Assembly: GCF_000003815.2 (NCBI RefSeq)
Contig: NC_049979.1
Span: forward strand, 15,495,240-15,559,239
Length of the DNA: 64,000 nt
Direction: 5' to 3'
Origin: Branchiostoma floridae
Taxonomy: Eukaryota; Chordata; Leptocardii; Amphioxiformes; Branchiostomatidae
The stretch's first letter is position 1. Each line of letters opens with the position of its first letter. Below the pieces are notes generated by a model, which was given only the letters and a program-made list of their open reading frames with translations, made no database searches and was not told the DNA's origin. A program made the position numbers and the translations under genes. Positions 6,029 to 55,000 of the stretch are shown piece by piece.

Positions 6029-9000
6029 TTAAACCACTCTTCCACTTTTCTTTGCTAGCTGTTTCTCCTCATATGCTTTTCTTAACTTGGCAAGTTTTTC
6101 CTCCATGGTATATTTCCTGCAGACAGAAGAAAAGGAGAAATTACAGGAAATGTCATTGAGCAAAAAGAATAGTTCAAACCCGGCTGGGTCATACCAATGA
6201 CTGACAAGTCTGACATCCTGTCTTGTCTGCTTAGCACTCAGCACTCATGAGAAGGACTATGGAAGTTGAACACACTCCACGATTAATGGACTAGCCCCCT
6301 GCTGTAGTGGTTTGTGTGTTCCAATGGCTATAGCCCCTATACACCAAATCAAAATTGGGGCAAAATGAAACTAACTCATCAATATGCTTTGTTATGATGT
6401 TGAATACCTTTATGATTAATTGTCAGTAAAGCTTTGATAGTTTAATAGTTCCTTGCCATAAAAGGAGATACAGCTGGCCCATGTAGGAGAGAACAATGCA
6501 TGGACTGACATATTCTCCAAGCAGAGGTTGGGTCAGGGGATGATAGTGGCCGAGGAGGGACCGGTGAAAAATCACAGCCACTACAATCTCCCGACCAAAC
6601 CTCTGCTTGGAGAATAGGACTGACACTGTCAGCGCAGATGCTCACAGGGGTTTATATGTCATTACCAAGCAAGAAAAATAACGGAATATTTCTTGCAGAG
6701 TGGACAGATGAAGGAGCATTTGGCTTCTTTTGACAGTAATGACAAAGTTGCAAGGCTCAGCAAAAATTGTTGATTCATTCAGTAGCCAACAGCTTGATAT
6801 CATCTATTATAGGGAGGATATAAATCAACTGTACTATGAAGTGTTTATCCGAGTCCATATTATGACAAGGTGCTGGCTCACAATACTTCATGGTGTCAAC
6901 ATCAGAGCTGATTACAGGTTTGAGCATTAAAGATTGTTCAGGGAACGAAAGTTCAAGTTCTACATACTCCCTCAAAGAGACAGGTCTAGAGACAGATTTC
7001 TTTGACTCCTGTATTTCTACAGCAGGTCCGTGTGAAAGTCAGGCCCAGCCTTTAACAGCAGTCTACCCCTTCAACCCCTAAACCACACCAACAAAAGCCA
7101 CATGTGGGGACCCTGTTAATCATGCAAGTCTCCATGGCTGACAGGGAAGTGGTTGCGCAACGGTGTCAAGGAGGATTAGGCCGTGCTGAGTGGTGCACAC
7201 TCTGGTATTGTGTTTGTCAGGCCTGGATATCCTCCAGTCTGAACCTTTTGTAGCTATATGGCAGGGTGGCAAATTGGGAGGGCTGTTACATAAGTGGAGA
7301 TGACGTACAAGTAGTTGTAGAGTGATGATGGAAAAAGAAAGACTACTAAAAAATTGTCAGAGATCCACAGCCAGTATGGAACCTGCAATGTTTCCTAACA
7401 TACAAAGAGTAGTACATGTATATATCCATGTGAGGGCCAATAAGGGCCAGACTGTGTTGGGGAAAGTGGCATTGCTTGAAAATGTTTGAATGTATTTCAA
7501 GTCTAGTGTTTTTGCAATCTTTTGGCTGATCAGTTTTCATGATTCCTCTGTTCCACACCCATCATCTCAATATTTCCCATTCTGTCTGTAAGAAGAGTTA
7601 ATGACCCACCTGGCATTCTCCTTGGCCATAGCATATGCCAGCCTGGCTTGCCTGTCCTGCTCCAGAACTTGACTATACACGAATCCCTTCACAACAAATC
7701 TGTCACACAAACACAAGAAAATAACACTGAAAATGGCTATCATTCATCTTATCTGAGAAATAAAAAATTCATATCCTTCATCTACCTATCTTACAGCTTT
7801 TCATCATCATGGGGTGATCTATGTATCAAGACCAGTAATGGTTACCACAGAATTCTGCAAGGTTTATCTAAGCAAACCAGTTTAAGATGTAGTTAATGTA
7901 CTTACATATAGACAAATATGGTGAGAAGGTATCCGCCTCCAAGTACTGACAGACAGACAGCCATCATCTTAGCATGGCTGGTGGAGCCACTGTATCTTTT
8001 ACCACCCCCTTCTCTGGCTGCCTTGAAGTCGTAATAGTAGTAGTTTTGACTCTGGCTTCTCCCTTGTTCAAATGGACCATGGCCATGGCTGAAACAGAAC
8101 AGAACACCTTTAAAGTGTTTTCCCTACATTCCAACCATCAATGCTCAAATGCCTTTAAAGTGTTTTCCCTACATTCCAACCATCAATGCTCAAATGGACA
8201 GAACACCAAATAACAGCTTGACCCTGTTGGGTGCTAAGAGCCCCCTGGAGTCTCAAAAGAAAACTGCAGCTAGAACTTCTCCATAACATGCTCCAGACAA
8301 GTCATTTTCTCATGAATATTTAAGTTATGCATTCTGTACACAGTAGTCTTTGGCATAAATGGTTAGTATCTCCTGCCAGTTGTTTCTGAAAGTTTAGAGT
8401 CTTTGTTATACTTTCCATGAACCGCCATGCTTGATGCTAGCCTGGGTACCATCCTCTGTAAAAACTGCTGGCTTAATCTTTCTGTTAGCAAGTAAAATGA
8501 TTGATCCAGTGGTTACCATGGAGGATAGTTTAGCAAAGCAAAAAGGTTAAGACAACAGTAGTTACTAGAGAGCAGTTTAGCAGGTGAAAAGATAGAGCCA
8601 GGTGGAAAGTACCCAGGCTAGCCAAAACATTTCCGACCATTTTCAGGTTCTGGGTCTGAGTTATTTCTGACCATAGTTAAAAGTACAGTAGTCCATTGCA
8701 ACATGACATAGATGTTTATTCCATCATCTTAGTTTTGGTCCCCACTGATTGGAGATCATAATGGATGTGCATGTATACTTTTTCTTTCATGAAAATGTTG
8801 AATGTAGCTTAAATAAAATCATGTCATTTTTTCCCCTCCCACTCCCACTAGTCAAGATGCCACCTACACAATCTAACTGAAGTGACCCAGTGTTACACTT
8901 GTTACTTGTACAAATGTACCAAACTCTGCAAGACTAGGACCCTACAGAGCGTCTACAGAATAAAGTACCTTCCACCAGGACCAAATGGGTAGTCAGGCCT

Positions 9001-17630: not shown

Positions 17631-20600
17631 TCACTTGAGATGTCGATGTACATACTGGACCAGCATGTCCCGGGACACCTTACTGTCACTGCCCTTATGG
17701 GAGTCATGAACTTTAACCCCATCCTCCCAGGCCCAGAATATCCTGTTGGCATAGCAGACCCTGGAACAGTTACAGGAGTACAGTTAAGTTATTTTTTAAA
17801 AAATCATATTTTGAACAAAAAATTATGCACAAGAGACATGCAAAGCACAAGAGACACAAAAAGAAATAAAACATTTTTAGAAAGGATGGTAAAAATCATC
17901 ATGACTACCCCTGCTTCAGGGGCTAAATGCATTAGTCCTCACCTGAATGGTGCAACAGCTTCAGCCGGACAGTCAAAGGTGGAACTTCCATTTCTGGAGT
18001 TGAAGAAGTACTTCTTGTTCCAACTCTTACTGTACTGCATCACCCACGGGTCTGGGAACAACAAGGAGGAACAGTCTCATCAGGGACAGAAATGTGGTGT
18101 GTTTGTGGGGAACTTAGGGGAATTTTAGGGGGAAATGGTCATCAGGGGTGCCTAAGCATTTGCACGAACCCTGTAAAATTCGTACGAATATTATGTGATA
18201 TGCACGAATCACTATGCGAAAACGCACGAATATTATGAAATTCGCACGAATCACTATGCAAAAACGCACGAATATTATGAAATTCGCACAAATCACTATG
18301 TGACACACACAAACCTTATGTGATTTGCACGATCCTGATGCAAAATTGCGCAACTACTGCCGCGCAACCACTGCCGGGGTCACGTGACAGACGGAGCGGG
18401 ATTTTCAAGATGGCGGCTTCGATCGGCGGCGACGGAAAATACGATGTAACACGCCGAAATGAAGCAAAACAGTAGCTCACGGGCTATCAAATACATCTTT
18501 GCGACGGTAAATGTCCATTCCATGCCTTGAAATATAAATATCACGGGTAGAAACGCTCAAAATCATGCCTCCTCCCGGCCGCCGTTTTTGCATAAGGATC
18601 ATGCAAATCACATAAGGTTCGTGTGTGTCACATAGTGATTCGTGCGAATTTCATAATATTCGTGCGTTTTTGCATAGTGATTCGTGCGAATTTCATAATA
18701 TTCGTGCGTTTTCGCATAGTGATTCGTGTGTATCACATAATATTCGTACGAATTTCATAGGGTTCGTGCAAATGCTTAGGCACCCCTGGTCATGGTAAAA
18801 CTGTTTGCAGCATGAAGCTGGATACATAAGATAAGTACATTTTTAGAAAATCATAAAGATACACGTAAAGACCAGACACATGTGCAAACACACACAAAAG
18901 TGAACACAATCATACAGGAAAACGTGCTGTTTGGTCTGAAGCAGGTACCATACCATTGACAGTTCTGATGAAGTGCACTCCACACGGCAGGAAGTGTCTG
19001 GTTCCATCGATGCTGTAACACAACCGGGGGTCTCGCGAACCCTTGGTCAGTCGCATATCTAACCTGTAACAATGATATTACACAATTTGAATTTTTTTCT
19101 TTCATTTTCAAGTCCTTTCTGTATTTAAAGTACTGGAGTAACTTCTAGACATTCTTTTCAATAAAACAGCTAATAGAACAGAGGGGGTCATGGACAGAGG
19201 AGTACTGGTAATGCCTTATTAGTTCTATATCCTCAAAACACTTACTTCTGAAAAATCTTCTCCACTTCTTCCAATCTGTAGACTTCTTTTGTTCTGTAAC
19301 AGAGAGAAACAGCAAGCTGGGGCTCTGTCATGATGAAAGGTGAAAGTCAATGAACCGGCACTAGCAAATGAGTGACTATAATTATACATGTACATAATGA
19401 GACTTCCAAAGAGACCATCGGTTATACTGGTAATGACTGCAATGTTTTGATAAGGCACCCATGATAAGACTGGACACACACCACAGAGTTATAATGAGCC
19501 AGAACCCCTGCAGAAGTCACTAAAGTTTGAAGACAGAGTCCATCCTACCTGAGTGGAGCCATGTCAGGTCTGCTAGGCTTGGACACGGCCTTCACAAACT
19601 TTTCTGCCATCAGCATCCTGGAGCAGAGAGAGAAAAACTTTTGTTATCAAGTATCTTTTCTTGTTGGAGCTTTTCTTTGAGGCTAACAGCTATAAAGTAT
19701 ATTTTGCTGATGTTTGGCCAAATGCCTCTTCAAAAGTTACGTACCTTTCACTGAAGTGCCTGCTGCTGATGTCCTCCCCATTCAGCACATAGGCATCCAC
19801 AATGTGCATGGCTGTGATCTTCCTTTGAGCTTTTCCCTGCAAACACGAACAGAACATATTTACACATAAATAACCTATCATTAGTACTGTAGCCAAACTG
19901 TAAAGGCAATATCAAAAGAAATGTCAGGACACAATGTCTACAGTAAGGGATAGGAAGGCATTAGGGTTGTTCCACACAAACTGCCTTCCTGTGAAATTAG
20001 GGAATTGATAGAAATTGTGCAAGTTTTTAAATAAATATTTCCTTTTTGTTGAAAAGGTGAATTGAACTTGAAAGGTAATATTTGCAAGCAAATACAGAAT
20101 GTTACCTTCACATGGTTTAGTCTAGCATTTCTACCTGGAAGGGTAAACTGATTAAGTTGCAGATGTTGACACAGGATAAGTCAAGACATGCAAGAAGGTA
20201 CAAATAAATTTTGATGATTTTTTATCTGTAACGTTATACATCTTGAATAATGTACACAACGTCAAATATTGTTCCAAACAGGGTTTCTCATCATCATCTC
20301 ATCACAGCCCCATAGCTACAAGCCACAGGGGCAGTCTGTCTGTCCAAAAAGGTTATCCATTTCTGACGGTCGTCAACAGGGTTTACTCGACGACATTTAG
20401 CGTGTCGTCTGCGGGAGCGTCAAGGCCTTGCGGAGAGAGAGCCATGGAAAAAAAACTGGCTTCCTTCAACAATATGTATTCATATTTAAAAAAATAAAGC
20501 TTTGAATCACTTGGGAAATTCATATTCTCTGTATCTGACTTGGTGCAGAACGCGAGCCGCGAAGTTCAGTTGATAACATAAGAATAAGTTTAATTTTGCG

Positions 20601-23600: not shown

Positions 23601-25924
23601 TATGTACCTTCTGTGAAGGTAACATAATTAATTGAATTGAATTAGTGTAGTCTCCCTTACCTCCCCCTTAAGTTCCTGTACTATTTCCACCACCAGCAGG
23701 GTGTCTTTAGGCAGCTCCATGTTCATGTCCAACTTCATCCACTTTGTGGTGGGGCGACCGTCCCATTGGAACAGGAGAGTTCTCTGAAAATGTCACAGTT
23801 AAAAATGTAAGCTACTCAACTAGCACTGCACCTTTCAAAATAAAGCAGCCTTTCAGACATAACCATTGTTCACAACAAGATTCTCTGTTGTGTTATTTTA
23901 ATACATGAAAGAATACTAACAAAGTAGCATTAATTCCACTCGATGAGAGGAAAGTGCCCTCTGACAGATTATTGCTGAACTGCAAGATGACATGCTACTA
24001 CAGTGTACTACTACTACTACTGTCAGTCAGTCTATATATACTATGACTACAACAGTGACAGTAAAAAGAATCCTTATAAACATCTTAAACCTGCATCTGT
24101 AAGTCTTTTTTCAGTCTTTTTCATATCTTATTTGACCTTTATGTCCCCAGCATTCCAGAAAAGCAGTAGAGTGATACCCAACACAATGAAAGAAAACTGA
24201 AACAACTGCACGTAAATACACTTACCCCAAGAGCCAGTAGGAACATCCTGTCTCCTCCAGCAACCATACACCTGAAGTCATACACGTTCCCCAGCTTACT
24301 GAGGTTATCTGGGGACAGCATGGTGGCCTTGTAGGTGAACACGTCCATGTTGGTCTCCTGGACAGTGTAGAGTGACAGCACAAATCAAGCTTGCTTCACA
24401 AATGAAGGGGTTACCTAAAATCTGCCCATTTCATACTCATTCAGGTCATTATGATAGCAATCACAAAACACTCTTGTAGGGCTGCTATAGGCATGATTTA
24501 GTCAGGTTATCCGTATTGTAGCAGACTGTCACCCATCAGTTGAAAGATCACAAGACTGGTCCAAACCAACACTACTACAGATACAATTCATAAGGCTAAG
24601 TCTACATGGTTTTATGGCTTAACTCGATACATAACTGAAAAGTCAGGGATCCAAGACAGTAATAAAGTCTCGAAACAGTTGAGTGGAGGGGCTCTACCTT
24701 GGCAAGTTCTGTGAACCTCACTCGAGAATCTGGCTTCTGGGGAGCAACTCGAGCCTCATCTGGAACCTGACATGAACAGTAAAACGTCACGACGCGCAGG
24801 ATAAATAAGGCACCAACAGACCACCACATTCTCTTCAGACCAAACTATAAACTAGTTTAATACCATTCATAAACTCTAACAGTTTAAATAAACATCTACA
24901 GAAAAATATCTTCCGTAGTGCTCAAAAAAGCTGGACAGTCCCCAGTTTTCAGAAGAGGAAAACACATAAATGTCACCTACCTTCCACAACTGTAGGGCCT
25001 CCTTTCTGATCTTCCCTTGTCCTGCTTCAAATAATGTGCTATAGATTGCAACAAATTAACATATTGTGCATTTCACAATTCTAAAATAGTGAAAAGCTCA
25101 AAAAAGAGAGATAACAGAGAAAAACAGTGGCCAAATTTGATGGCTAAATTTTAAAGAATTGCTGAGTCCATCAGACAGAAGTGACTCTTTTGGCCTGTCT
25201 GTACTGAGAGAAGGTTTAGAACTTACGTGTCCTGGGTATATCCTCTGATCTTAGCAAGATGCTTTGTCTGCTTCACAGCCAAACTGAAAAACAAAGTAAC
25301 ACATCCTTTGGGAACTGGAGGGACAGTAACTCATCAAATAGTGAGACTGTGATGACAAATTGCAGGTTGAGTAGGTAAAAGACATGTGACGGTAATACTT
25401 ACTCCTACAGTCAAAACTTAAACTGCAAACCCAACTGGATATACTACTTACATTTCTGTTGATACCAAGTAAGTAATAATGGTCAAATGTACTTCTTGGC
25501 ACCAAATACCTAACGACATCAAAAGTGCTACTGACTACATATTTGGCATGACCCCATATCACCCCCCCCCCCCACCTTGCACACAAAGTCATTGTACACT
25601 GAACCACTGTCAAACTGTAAAAAAATACCACAAACAACTCTACAGAAGTCACTCCTCACTTTTCATTTGAGGACACCATGTACTGGAAGAACTGCGAGTC
25701 CTTCTTGATGATGTCGAGAGGAACCACCTCGTTCACGTCTACTTCTGTGTTCTTGAGTCTGTTCATCTGGATGTTCACATTGAAGAGATACTCTTCCACT
25801 ACCTCATAGCCTGGCTTCAGCCCCTTACACACTACATATCTGGGATAGAAAACAAGATGAATATAATGTCATCATATAGTTGCAAATACATGTATATTGT
25901 ATAGGAATCTCTGAGGAATTCTAA

Positions 25925-46568: not shown

Positions 46569-47020
46569 GTGTTTTAATTGTTTTTCCTTAGATGAACATG
46601 CGGAGAATCAAAACCATGGACTTCGTTAAGCATGATTTGAACCGGCTGAAAGATATAAACACATCTAACTGAAATGAGAACTCTAAGCTGCTTCCAATGT
46701 GTACTTTTTATCTGAAGCAAAAAGTCAAGTACAAAGGTTCAAGGTCGATAGTTACACTTTCATGTTTGGACATGTTTGCAGAGCAGTCATATTTTCCAAT
46801 TCTAAAATTCAACCACACCATGTTAACGTAAGAACATAACCAATGACAAGTCAATACTGTACTAGCTGATCACTTTTAAAATGGTTGTTGCTTTTAAATT
46901 GTTATTTTTAAATTGATTCAAGTAACACCATTTCAAACAATAATCAACTCAAAGATTCACTAATGTCATTGTTTCTAGACCGATACAGTTCAATCAAAGT
47001 CAGCCTTTGGATTGCAACTA

Positions 47021-47224
47021 CTCTCCAAGCAGAGGTTAGGCTCTGGCTGTTTTTTTAACGTTTTTTTAGTCGTTTTTATCGGGCTTTCTATTTTTTTTTT
47101 ATCTTGCTGTGTCAAAACCTAACTGCTGGCGTACTTCAAGAAAAATGACAAAATAGAAAGTCCGATAAAAACGACTAAAAAAAAACTTTAAAAAACAGCC
47201 GGAGCCTAACCTCTGCTTGGAGAG
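47021..47224. mobile_element. Hairpin MITE, TCTCCAAGCAGA family, copy 2
   Basis: 204 bp. It begins CTCTCCAAGCAGAGGTTAGG and ends with the reverse complement, flanked by TA at 47019-47020 and 47225-47226. The arms pair over about 80 bases, including gtcgtttttatcggg/ccgataaaaacgac, with T-run length differences. Its interior is unrelated to that of copies 1 and 3. Confidence 0.85.
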
Positions 47225-48579
47225 TAGATTCCAACTACTTGACCAACTTCGATGGAACAACATGAGTGGCTGAATGCACATGGAAAATGTACATACCTCA
47301 GTTTCTTCACAATTGTCTGAACAGGAAAGAACTAAAAACCATTTGGGATCAGCCACACCACAAATTAGTGTTGTCCCCTTCAATATTACACAAGCCTCGC
47401 CCAAATAATCATTTGGGAGACTGTTATAGCAGTTGCCAAAGTATATAGCAGAATATATCTAAACAATGTCCACAGTGAAACATGATGCATTTTGAAGATG
47501 AAAATTATGGTTTTAACTTGTAGATAGAATTCCAAATAGGAGGCTACAAAAGGAAATTTGCTGTTTTGACTAGGAATAGCAGAAGCACTACAGCATCTCT
47601 CCTTTTAGTTTCTGACAATCTGCCTTCCTGACAGGGGGGAGGCTACCGTCAACAAGGGTCACCAATACAGCCACATGACAAATCTTCAATGTTTCTAGGG
47701 AATTGTAAAGGATCTGGTTTAAGAGTTGCTTTGATTACTAATGCAAAACAATGTGACACATAGGCAACCAATCATTTACACTGTACCATCATGGCAATCC
47801 ACACTGACTGGTGTAGCAAGGAAAATTGAAATAAAAGATACAAAAACAATTATAACCTGAGGGCACCTGACAAGCTGTAAATGTAAATGAAAAAAATAGC
47901 AACAATAGTATACATGCAATGTGCCAGGGGTCACCATTCCCCATGTCAAGAACCAGGATTTGGAGTTTAAAAATGTAGCAATGTTCATGCAACACAATTA
48001 GGGCATGTATGTATGACATTTTGATATGACTATGCTTCACACCATAACATATTAAGCATTACATTTGTAAATACTTAAAGATATTTTGCATGCTCAAAAT
48101 AGAACAAGTATTACAATGAATATGCCAAAATAACAATGCTAAAAGCTACAGACTTGCTTCTTTTTACATGACCAAGTAGATGCTGTACAGGAACAACAAT
48201 TTGTCAATATCATACAGGACCCTCCCACCATTGGGAGCTCACAGAAAACATACAAACGCCATATAAAAATCTAAAAAATATATGTAGATGAAAACATGTT
48301 TATGAAAATCAGGCACCAAGAATATCATAGTTATTGCCATAAAGTTGTATCATACAGATTTTGTCGTAACATGTATTAGTCAACATACATGTGTATATCA
48401 AATAGCATTTTGCTTCCATCAGAGGCCATTCAGACAAGACTGTATTAAAATCACAAAAAGACACAAAGTACAAAGCCTCTGTAAATAGCACCAATTGTGT
48501 GGAAGTGAACACTTTACAGCAAATATCACAAATTCAAAAATCTAAAACATCAACGTGAACTTCGTGAAGTGCGCATGTT

Positions 48580-52000: not shown

Positions 52001-55000
52001 TGTGTTGCAGAAAGATGAAGGAAAATACAGACAAAACGTTTGGCACTTTGACATTTTTGCACTTTCAAGTTGCAGTCAAAATGGCATGGAAACCACCAGA
52101 ATGAAATAGAATTTTTGATACTTCACTTTTGCCAAGACTCACCAAATAATACATTTGAGGATACTTCAATGAGTGCAATAAAACTAACAGAAGCAATCAA
52201 TTAAAATAGAATGTGGTGGACAAAAAAAATTGAACTTTGATATGTCATGAGGCAATGATAAAGTGAGTTATTTATTAGGGAACTAAAAAAAGATTGTTGA
52301 ATAAGAGTAAGTGACATGAGAGTTATCAAAAAATGTTACAGAAAACCTATCCATGTTACTTACAAATCTAGGACTGGTGAGATCAGGCTGGGGAGAAAAG
52401 AAATTAAACATGACATTAGTACAGGCTGGATTATCATGCAGAGGAGACATACACATGCATCTACATTGATCCACAGAAACAAAAATAATGGTCAAGGGGT
52501 GAGAAAGCATCCACCTGTACAAAATGCTGTAATGCATTTAACAATTTGTAAACTTTCTTCATTGTATTTAAAAAAAAAAAAAAACTTTTAGTGGAAATGA
52601 TGTGGCTGAGCATATTTCCTCATACAGACAAATGTTAGAAAATCATACTTGGTTTGTGTGTTCTGCTAAGCACAAGGTTATCAGCTGGAAGCTTGTCATC
52701 CAATAATTGTCTCAATCTGGCATTTAGGGCAGACTTCTGTGTATGCTTTACAGTTTACTTTTTTATTAATAGCAAACATAAACCTTAAGAATATTCTAGT
52801 ACAGTAAAACATGTTTAAGGTTAGTTTCCACATGCCAAATGGTTGCTGTTTACATGGATAGACTACCACTCTAGTCTAGATGGTACTATACTCTATAGCC
52901 AAAATAACTAAGTCTAGAGGGTATTTTTGAGCACATAAACTTTCTACTCTATGGCAATGAGATAAAAGCTGGTACAATGTATGTACTCTGCAACGCTCAC
53001 CTTTTTCATGCCTGCTCAGCATACCGATGCAACAAAGGAAGCAAAAGAAAACAATATGAGCTTTATGGCAATAGCATCAACAGCAATCAACACAAGATGC
53101 ACAACAGCGATAACAGCAAAAATGATATGCCACCAAAAAGACAAGTACTGGTCAACGTACTGCACACAAAACAATACAGCAGTTTGTGATTTGATGACAC
53201 AAAACTGCCAATAATTCTGAGTAAGTGCACATATAATACAATTTCATACCAAGTTGCTTTTGCAGCAGCCTTAAACATAACATAATTCTGATGTCAGCAG
53301 ATATATACAAACGGCACAGCAAAATACTAGTACTCAAACACCAACTACACAACCTTGCACCCAAAATATGTTTGCATCACACCTCAGTACAAAACTCACC
53401 TAACAGGAAGTTCCCTACAGTTCAAGAGAAGCATGCAAGAGAACATGCAACATCATTAGGAACATGGTACATGCAGGAGGGACCAGGTCACACTCTTCCA
53501 AGATACATGTGGGGTTAGACCAGGAAGGGTTGGGTAGGCGTGTGTGTGTGTCAAAAGGTTGGAAATCATTTTCTAGTAAACCTTTGGGAAAACAGTTTTA
53601 TCATAATACATCATGTCCATGCTTGCAGTTGCAGAAACAAACACACTTGGGTGAACTATAACTTTTTGATGATCCTCTTCAACATTTGTATGATGTGTGT
53701 CTTTATTGAAAAAATAACTTGCATCATTGGTGCATATCTTTTGTATGTACTGTACAATTTATGCACAGACTAACCCAACAAGTCTCCCTGGTCTTTCCCT
53801 GAACAAAGAACAATATACAGACTGAACAAGGCAATGTACAGAAAAGACAGCAATGACCATGGAATGACATAAAAATGTACACATAAGCCAACAACACATC
53901 AGTTAGAGCGGAAATCAGACAATGGATATCACAAGAATCACAGAATGCTTGGATCACATTAGGAGCATACACAGTAGTCTCCAAGCAGACCCATCGGTGC
54001 CTTAGAGATAATATCAAAGCTGGCAAAGGAGTATAGCCGGCCAAAGGGAGTCAAACGGTGCCGCTATACTAAGTCCCTTGCCAGCTTTGATACTATTTCT
54101 AAGGCACCGTAGGGTCTGCTTGGAGACTAAATACACAGCACTTCCAGTCAGTAGTTAAATGACAGACAGCTTTAAGACATTGAAGGTTACTGTACAGCCA
54201 AAAGGTGTTTGCCAGCTACCTTTGTGGGGCCATCTGGGACCAACAAAAGCTTAATTTGCCAAGTTAATGACACTGATTTTTGCTGTTCTCCCAAATTAGT
54301 TGAGAACGCTTGACTTGCATAATAGATTTTGACAAACATTTACCTTTGAGCTGTATTCCCCTCTGAAGTTTTGCCATTGGAGTCAACACTGTATCTGTAA
54401 AGGTAAAGAGATTTGTTGCTTTAATTGTCCTTTCGCAACACACAATTTTTCAGTAAATCCAAGGGCTTAATCTTTTGAAGATAAAAACTATATTTGAACA
54501 CCAACCTGTCTTTGCCCTTGTAAGTCTCCTGGAGTCGGCCCTGCCCACTCTGTGTCTCATGCTTCCAATCCCTTCATCCCTCCTCCTGTCATCTTCTTCC
54601 TCCTGTTTGTTGGAATCTCGTCTCTCAGTTCTTCTCTTCTCCCCTCGCTCCTCATGTGCAGGATGATCTGTGCAAAAGAACCACAAACTCTCAATAAACA
54701 ACAGTAGGAGCTCCTTCATGACCAAATGAAAGATTTCAACTCCCGAGGAAATTCAACTTTCTACAAGTCATTTTTTTAGCAAAAGTAAGTACGTGTACAT
54801 GTATCATATGCTACTGGCTCTGTCTTATTGGTAGGCCCCTGTTCTAAGTTCTTTCTCCCAGTGTATCATTCCTATGTTACATATGGCTACAAACAGATAC
54901 TTACAGGGACGTTCATTGCCCAACTCCATGATGGCTTTCCTCGCCTAGAATAAAAAGTAATGCTTGTTAACATTTTCATCATTAACACACCACTAGATAC

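Follow-up and report, generated by a model that had tools for sequence, protein, structure and literature searches.

The stretch of Branchiostoma floridae DNA analysed here (the window, 64,000 nucleotides) contains exons of CMTR1 on its minus strand, including a match to the human protein at 25656–25868 (E = 1.3e-18), and an inserted element at 18143–18788 (Table 1). Of the two frames that flank the insertion, the upstream one matches human CMTR1 with an E-value of 1.4e-4 and the downstream one with 1.5e-8; the latter contains a WW domain whose Pfam score is slightly below Pfam's cut-off. Since the flanking frames correspond to residues 717–755 and 756–791, the insertion is placed in the intron between both exons, directly before the WW-domain exon.

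Table 1. Features of the inserted element and its flanks, in window positions
Feature	Position	Strand	Remark
CMTR1 WW-domain exon frame, downstream of insertion	17939..18076	minus	human CMTR1 756–791
Left target-site duplication GTCAT	18138..18142	none	exact 5-bp match with right flank
Left arm, 203 bp	18143..18345	plus	tip CAGGGGTGCCTAAGC; ~20–22-bp units forming 42-bp repeats
Centre, 240 bp, CpG-rich	18346..18585	plus	holds TCACGTGA, CAAGATGGCGGC and TATAAATA
14-bp tandem duplication inside centre	18348..18376	plus	period 14, 2.1 copies
YY1-type motif CAAGATGGCGGC	18406..18417	plus	first nine bases reversed read GCCATCTTG, the ProtoRAG TR5 sequence
Right arm, 203 bp	18586..18788	minus	reverse complement of left arm, 96%
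Right target-site duplication GTCAT	18789..18793	none	pairs with left GTCAT
CMTR1 exon frame, upstream of insertion	18910..19077	minus	human CMTR1 717–755

A sequence-only reading of this locus had described two 203-base inverted arms with GTCAT direct repeats around a CpG-rich centre of 240 bases, and this architecture is confirmed. The arms are 96% complementary with a spacing of 240 nt, and the centre (GC 0.52) has a CpG o/e of 1.48, compared with 0.52 for the whole window and 0.69 for a 200-kb genome sample. An E-box (CACGTG) sits within TCACGTGA in the centre, and CAAGATGGCGGC occurs only once across the window. The arms, together with the flanking exon matches, also support the view that a foldback-like transposon lies inside CMTR1. 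Folding of the element as single-stranded DNA gives z = −30.6 and folding of its CMTR1-sense strand as RNA gives z = −46.6 (20 shuffles each), consistent with the earlier suggestion that the element could form a hairpin of ~200 bp in CMTR1 pre-mRNA, as far as prediction can tell. The centre of the window copy is longer than that of the family (240 versus 226–227 bp) because of the 14-bp tandem duplication, which is absent from the other 39 scored centre matches (best 40 of 260; these alignments start at query base 17 at least). Elsewhere in the window, three palindromic inverted repeats (6511–6616, 47018–47227 and 53975–54129) carry CTCCAAGCAGA near their ends and apparently represent another small MITE family.

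Searching the full element against the genome of the window itself (513 Mb in 431 contigs) returned 573 candidate places, the best 40 of which were scored. All 40 match over the element, including the same centre, with 93–96% identity when the window copy itself is excepted; the alignments cover query positions 1–646 in 39 cases and 8–646 in one. These are the copies nearest to the window copy, so that age estimates and subfamily shares derived from them are biased. The terminal 22-mer has 572 genome matches at no more than one mismatch, and its reversed control has none. Among the matches listed are 100 tip places, all exact and located on C1–C4 and the start of C5, places with one mismatch being counted only. 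Grouping them into convergent pairs of less than 20 kb gives 34 pairs and leaves 32 tips unpaired, with spans of 590–661 bp in 26 pairs, 248–422 bp in five and more than 1.6 kb in three. Two of the long pairs, of 2298 bp (containing a run of 100 N) and 1652 bp, were read, and each proved to be a copy of this element whose left arm holds a second, nested transposon; the reading left out the 11,921-bp pair and the five pairs of 248–422 bp. The 200-kb genome sample (15,480 N) contains no copy. Short, non-coding, with inverted ends and target duplications, and present in many copies of about one length, the element has the characters of a MITE. Titles and abstract openings in the literature searched contain no description of this family, for which a named Repbase entry may exist.

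In L068 (C4:32590900–32593380), the nested transposon is a 1603-bp element at positions 184–1786 of the locus, within a left arm; it has ends CAGGGCTCGAAG and GAGGCCTG and a 6-bp duplication, ATTATG, and is possibly hAT6-like. In L069 (C2:3036980–3038800), a 1038-bp element beginning GTGGTGCGTACCGG is nested in the left arm at 256–1293, beside TA.

Target-site duplications were scored in 39 of the 40 copies fetched, L039, in which no left tip could be recognised, being excluded from these counts and from those of the alignment. A perfect 5-bp duplication is present in 33 copies, four of five bases agree in 5, and one copy (L006) has none. Four further copies (L061, L062, L068 and L069) all have perfect 5-bp duplications, bringing the total to 37 of 43. 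No perfect duplication of 6–11 bp was observed among the 39 copies. Duplications of 8 bp, as in hAT, are thus ruled out (0/39). Drosophila Foldback makes 9-bp target duplications, and Foldback proper is likewise ruled out by their occurrence in 0/39 copies. The element starts with CAGGGG in 38 of the 39 copies and with CAAGGG in the remaining one.

The family consensus is 633 bp long, with arms that are alike at 202 of 203 positions. The arm units of ~42 bases noted previously are indeed present as 42-bp repeats, each of which resolves in the consensus into two alternating units of ~20–22 bp, with nine ACGA-initial units per arm; the element thereby has the long inverted arms of tandem subrepeats that characterize Foldback-like elements. 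The copies fall into two subfamilies, and outside CpG sites most members of the first diverge from the consensus by no more than ~1%. We infer that the element moved recently, because five copies (L020–L023 and L026) at different sites and with different flanks are identical over 633 bp; their 5-bp duplications are perfect in four and match at four of five bases in L022. The second subfamily includes the window copy, which has 28 differences from the overall consensus over 632 aligned positions (21/527 non-CpG and 7/105 CpG).

Eight arm positions that vary between subfamilies do so in both arms of a given copy, L004 showing this at all eight, and the arms of L002, L010 and L014 are mosaic. These paired changes and mosaic copies are compatible with arm-to-arm conversion, as judged from the aligned copies. 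Homogenisation of the arms is imperfect: apart from L028 and L040, in which indels spoil the count, each copy has 1 to 16 differences confined to one arm. The two arms of L014 (C7:9914897–9915728) are of different types, likely as a product of conversion or recombination. Arm length varies with the number of tandem units, as seen from an extra 42-bp unit in L062, and an old copy on C172 (L071/L078) has repeated arm units of ~30 bp.

The sequence-only reading had further proposed that a foldback element captured the promoter and 5′ exon end of a gene. This is contradicted as a local event at CMTR1, since all 40 scored copies (the best of 573 candidates) have the same centre, which the family copies examined hold in common. 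A parent locus for the centre was also sought genome-wide. The centre alone gave 260 candidates, and the best 40 of these match at 97–99% identity, the window itself excepted. Of these 40, 39 were examined (33 by sequence and 6 by listed tips, C6:26404159 being left out) and all adjoin an arm or tip, with both arms visible in 16 and one arm in 4 of the 20 places read further; neither an arm-less centre nor a donor promoter was found among the 39. A weak parent locus may lie among the lower-scoring candidates beyond the best 40 of 573 or of 260.

The centre is nevertheless a constant part of the family. Its consensus has a CpG o/e of 1.38, TCACGTGA is present in 39/39 copies, CAAGATGGC in 38/39 and the TATA-like TATAAATA in 36/39; of 20 further copies, 16 retain the exact YY1 9-mer and 4 lack it. 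In 15 copies compared, changes were observed at 2 of 180 sites in the YY1 12-mer, 0 of 120 in the E-box and 75 of 3390 in the centre at large, so that neither motif clearly exceeds the rest of the centre in conservation, and with the 20 further copies there is still no clear signal of selection on the motifs. The short ORF described at the YY1 motif does begin with an ATG inside the motif. A conserved peptide is rejected: 19 copies read one peptide and the second subfamily reads variants of another, and the element has no long or conserved ORF. When reversed, CAAGATGGC is GCCATCTTG, the TR5 element of ProtoRAG, which one report describes as bound by lancelet YY1 and important for the regulation and recombination of that transposon (PMC7481187). 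Judged by its motifs, an E-box and a YY1 site, the CpG-rich centre is probably what remains of the promoter of the parent transposon, and it may have served as a promoter at the origin of the element, for example that of a transposase.

Taken together, our observations make it very probable that the element is a high-copy, recently active, non-autonomous MITE with Foldback-like arms, belonging most likely to the hAT5 group of the hAT superfamily. The hAT5 membership, which is likely and not proven, is favoured because of the 5-bp duplications and the CAGGG start; hAT families with 5-bp duplications have been designated hAT5 (PMC12730594, citing Kapitonov and Jurka 2007), and the present element makes duplications of that length. 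A search of the genome for the hAT dimerisation domain yielded 33 matches from 54 scored candidates. One of these lies in a 3813-bp element on C1 (L063, 931–4743) with 13-bp inverted ends CAGGGCTCGAAAT matching at 13/13 positions, a duplication ATATG and an ORF of 717 aa containing the domain (E = 5e-10). A second copy of this type on C9 (L065, L066) has the same 60-bp ends and a duplication TGACA, and such an end pair occurred in 0 of 60 Markov controls. With a long open transposase frame and the same ends in both copies, the L063 family is a candidate for recent activity. The likeness of the MITE to the hAT5 group, as this is described in PMC12730594, consists of the 5-bp duplications and of the CAGGG start that it has in common with L063 in the same genome. 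In contrast, the MITE lacks a transposase and has 203-bp tandem-repeat arms, and only the first five bases of the ends are common to both, the sequences differing past CAGGG.

No autonomous element with CAGGGGTGCCTAAGC ends was found among the hAT genes examined (5 on C1–C4 and 11 neighbourhoods). None of the 5 hAT-domain matches on C1–C4 is near a tip among the matches listed, which are exact tips only, and of the 11 hAT-gene neighbourhoods read (8 of them only for ~1.4 kb on the 3′ side) a single one, on C172, contains such a tip. There, the tip begins an old MITE copy that lies ~500 bp past the point where a hAT element resembling L063 ends.

Similar architectures have been described elsewhere. 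Galileo also has long arms with internal tandem units, a palindromic foldback and arm lengths that vary by unit number (PMC3688188, PMC4168063), and Foldback elements share this build; Galileo is assigned to the P superfamily (PMC3688188), whereas the present element has CAGGGG ends and 5-bp duplications. By its description, an apparently non-autonomous foldback element with tandem repeats in its arms, Tetris/DAIBAM of Drosophila virilis is comparable too (PMC4079207), but it belongs to another species and has a unit of ~220 bp. A transposase made elsewhere would bind the tips and the tandem ~21-bp arm units, as is reported for Galileo, excise the element and reinsert it at 5-bp targets, and the arms would be kept alike by arm-to-arm conversion, possibly via a hairpin.

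The 5-bp duplications also fit RAG-type elements, and an origin of the element as a non-autonomous relative of ProtoRAG or Transib was considered. In favour of this, ProtoRAG shares the 5-bp duplications and carries a GCCATCTTG YY1 site inside a transposon, as described in PMC7481187 and PMC8289069; in the window copy, CACTATG (TR1 of ProtoRAG) occurs three times in the left arm and CATAGTG three times in the right part, in addition to the TR5 sequence in the centre, and RAG1-like fragments are present in the genome. The RAG1-family (PF12940) matches are eight in number, including C11:1543383–1544420 and others on C6 and C165, and seven have in-frame stops. It is because of the element's ends that membership is set aside: they are CAGGGG, whereas ProtoRAG ends in CACTATG with the YY1 site placed in the TIR at a set spacing (PMC7481187, PMC8289069), and the latter report states that this terminal heptamer is identical in all compared ProtoRAG TIRs and that its first CAC is essential (PMC8289069). 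Moreover, the TR1–TR5 spacing of 27/31 bp is not observed, the nearest left CACTATG being ~90–105 bp from the YY1 site and in the opposite relative orientation, and L063 demonstrates that a hAT element can combine CAGGG ends with 5-bp duplications. We consider a ProtoRAG or Transib affiliation highly improbable.

It is also conceivable that capture took place in the founder, which would have enclosed a host promoter and 5′ exon end between its foldback arms and spread with this cargo as a Pack-type element. CpG-rich sequence with an E-box, a YY1-type motif and an ATG, all of which the centre contains, is typical of TATA-less promoters. Against such an origin, the 39 examined of the best 40 centre matches reveal no identifiable donor locus, the two subfamilies do not have the same ORF at the ATG, and most copies carry the TATA-like TATAAATA, so that we regard it as unlikely, albeit less so than a RAG affiliation. 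A local role of the CMTR1 copy, such as an antisense promoter or an RNA hairpin regulating the cap methyltransferase, could draw on the strong predicted hairpin and on the motif ATG, since the centre read in the YY1-ATG direction is antisense to CMTR1. Yet this copy is one of hundreds of similar copies, and its 28 consensus differences give no sign of special preservation, which leaves very little probability for such a role. Rather than a local regulator, the CMTR1 copy is most likely an intronic passenger removed by splicing, with a predicted capacity to form a long RNA hairpin.

Our results provide a family context that corrects a plausible story of promoter capture at CMTR1. In kind, the element is unremarkable: it is a young transposon, non-autonomous, whose foldback arms are unusually neat. 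It documents that a MITE with foldback arms underwent a very young burst in lancelet, the chordate in which ProtoRAG serves as a model for the origin of V(D)J recombination. The identical copies point to an active transposase in the recent past, which may still exist. Part of the interest lies in the YY1/E-box module common to the family, and with the shared YY1 9-mer it can be tested directly whether regulation by YY1 extends to several groups of transposons within a single host. It is possible, though rather unlikely, that the centre functions as a YY1/E-box promoter module, belonging to a lancelet hAT5 family and retained by hundreds of MITE copies. If so, each copy would be a portable regulatory module, host YY1 would recognise one 9-mer both in the present MITE and in ProtoRAG, which are unrelated groups of lancelet transposons, and YY1 control of lancelet DNA transposons would be general and not special to the ancestors of RAG.
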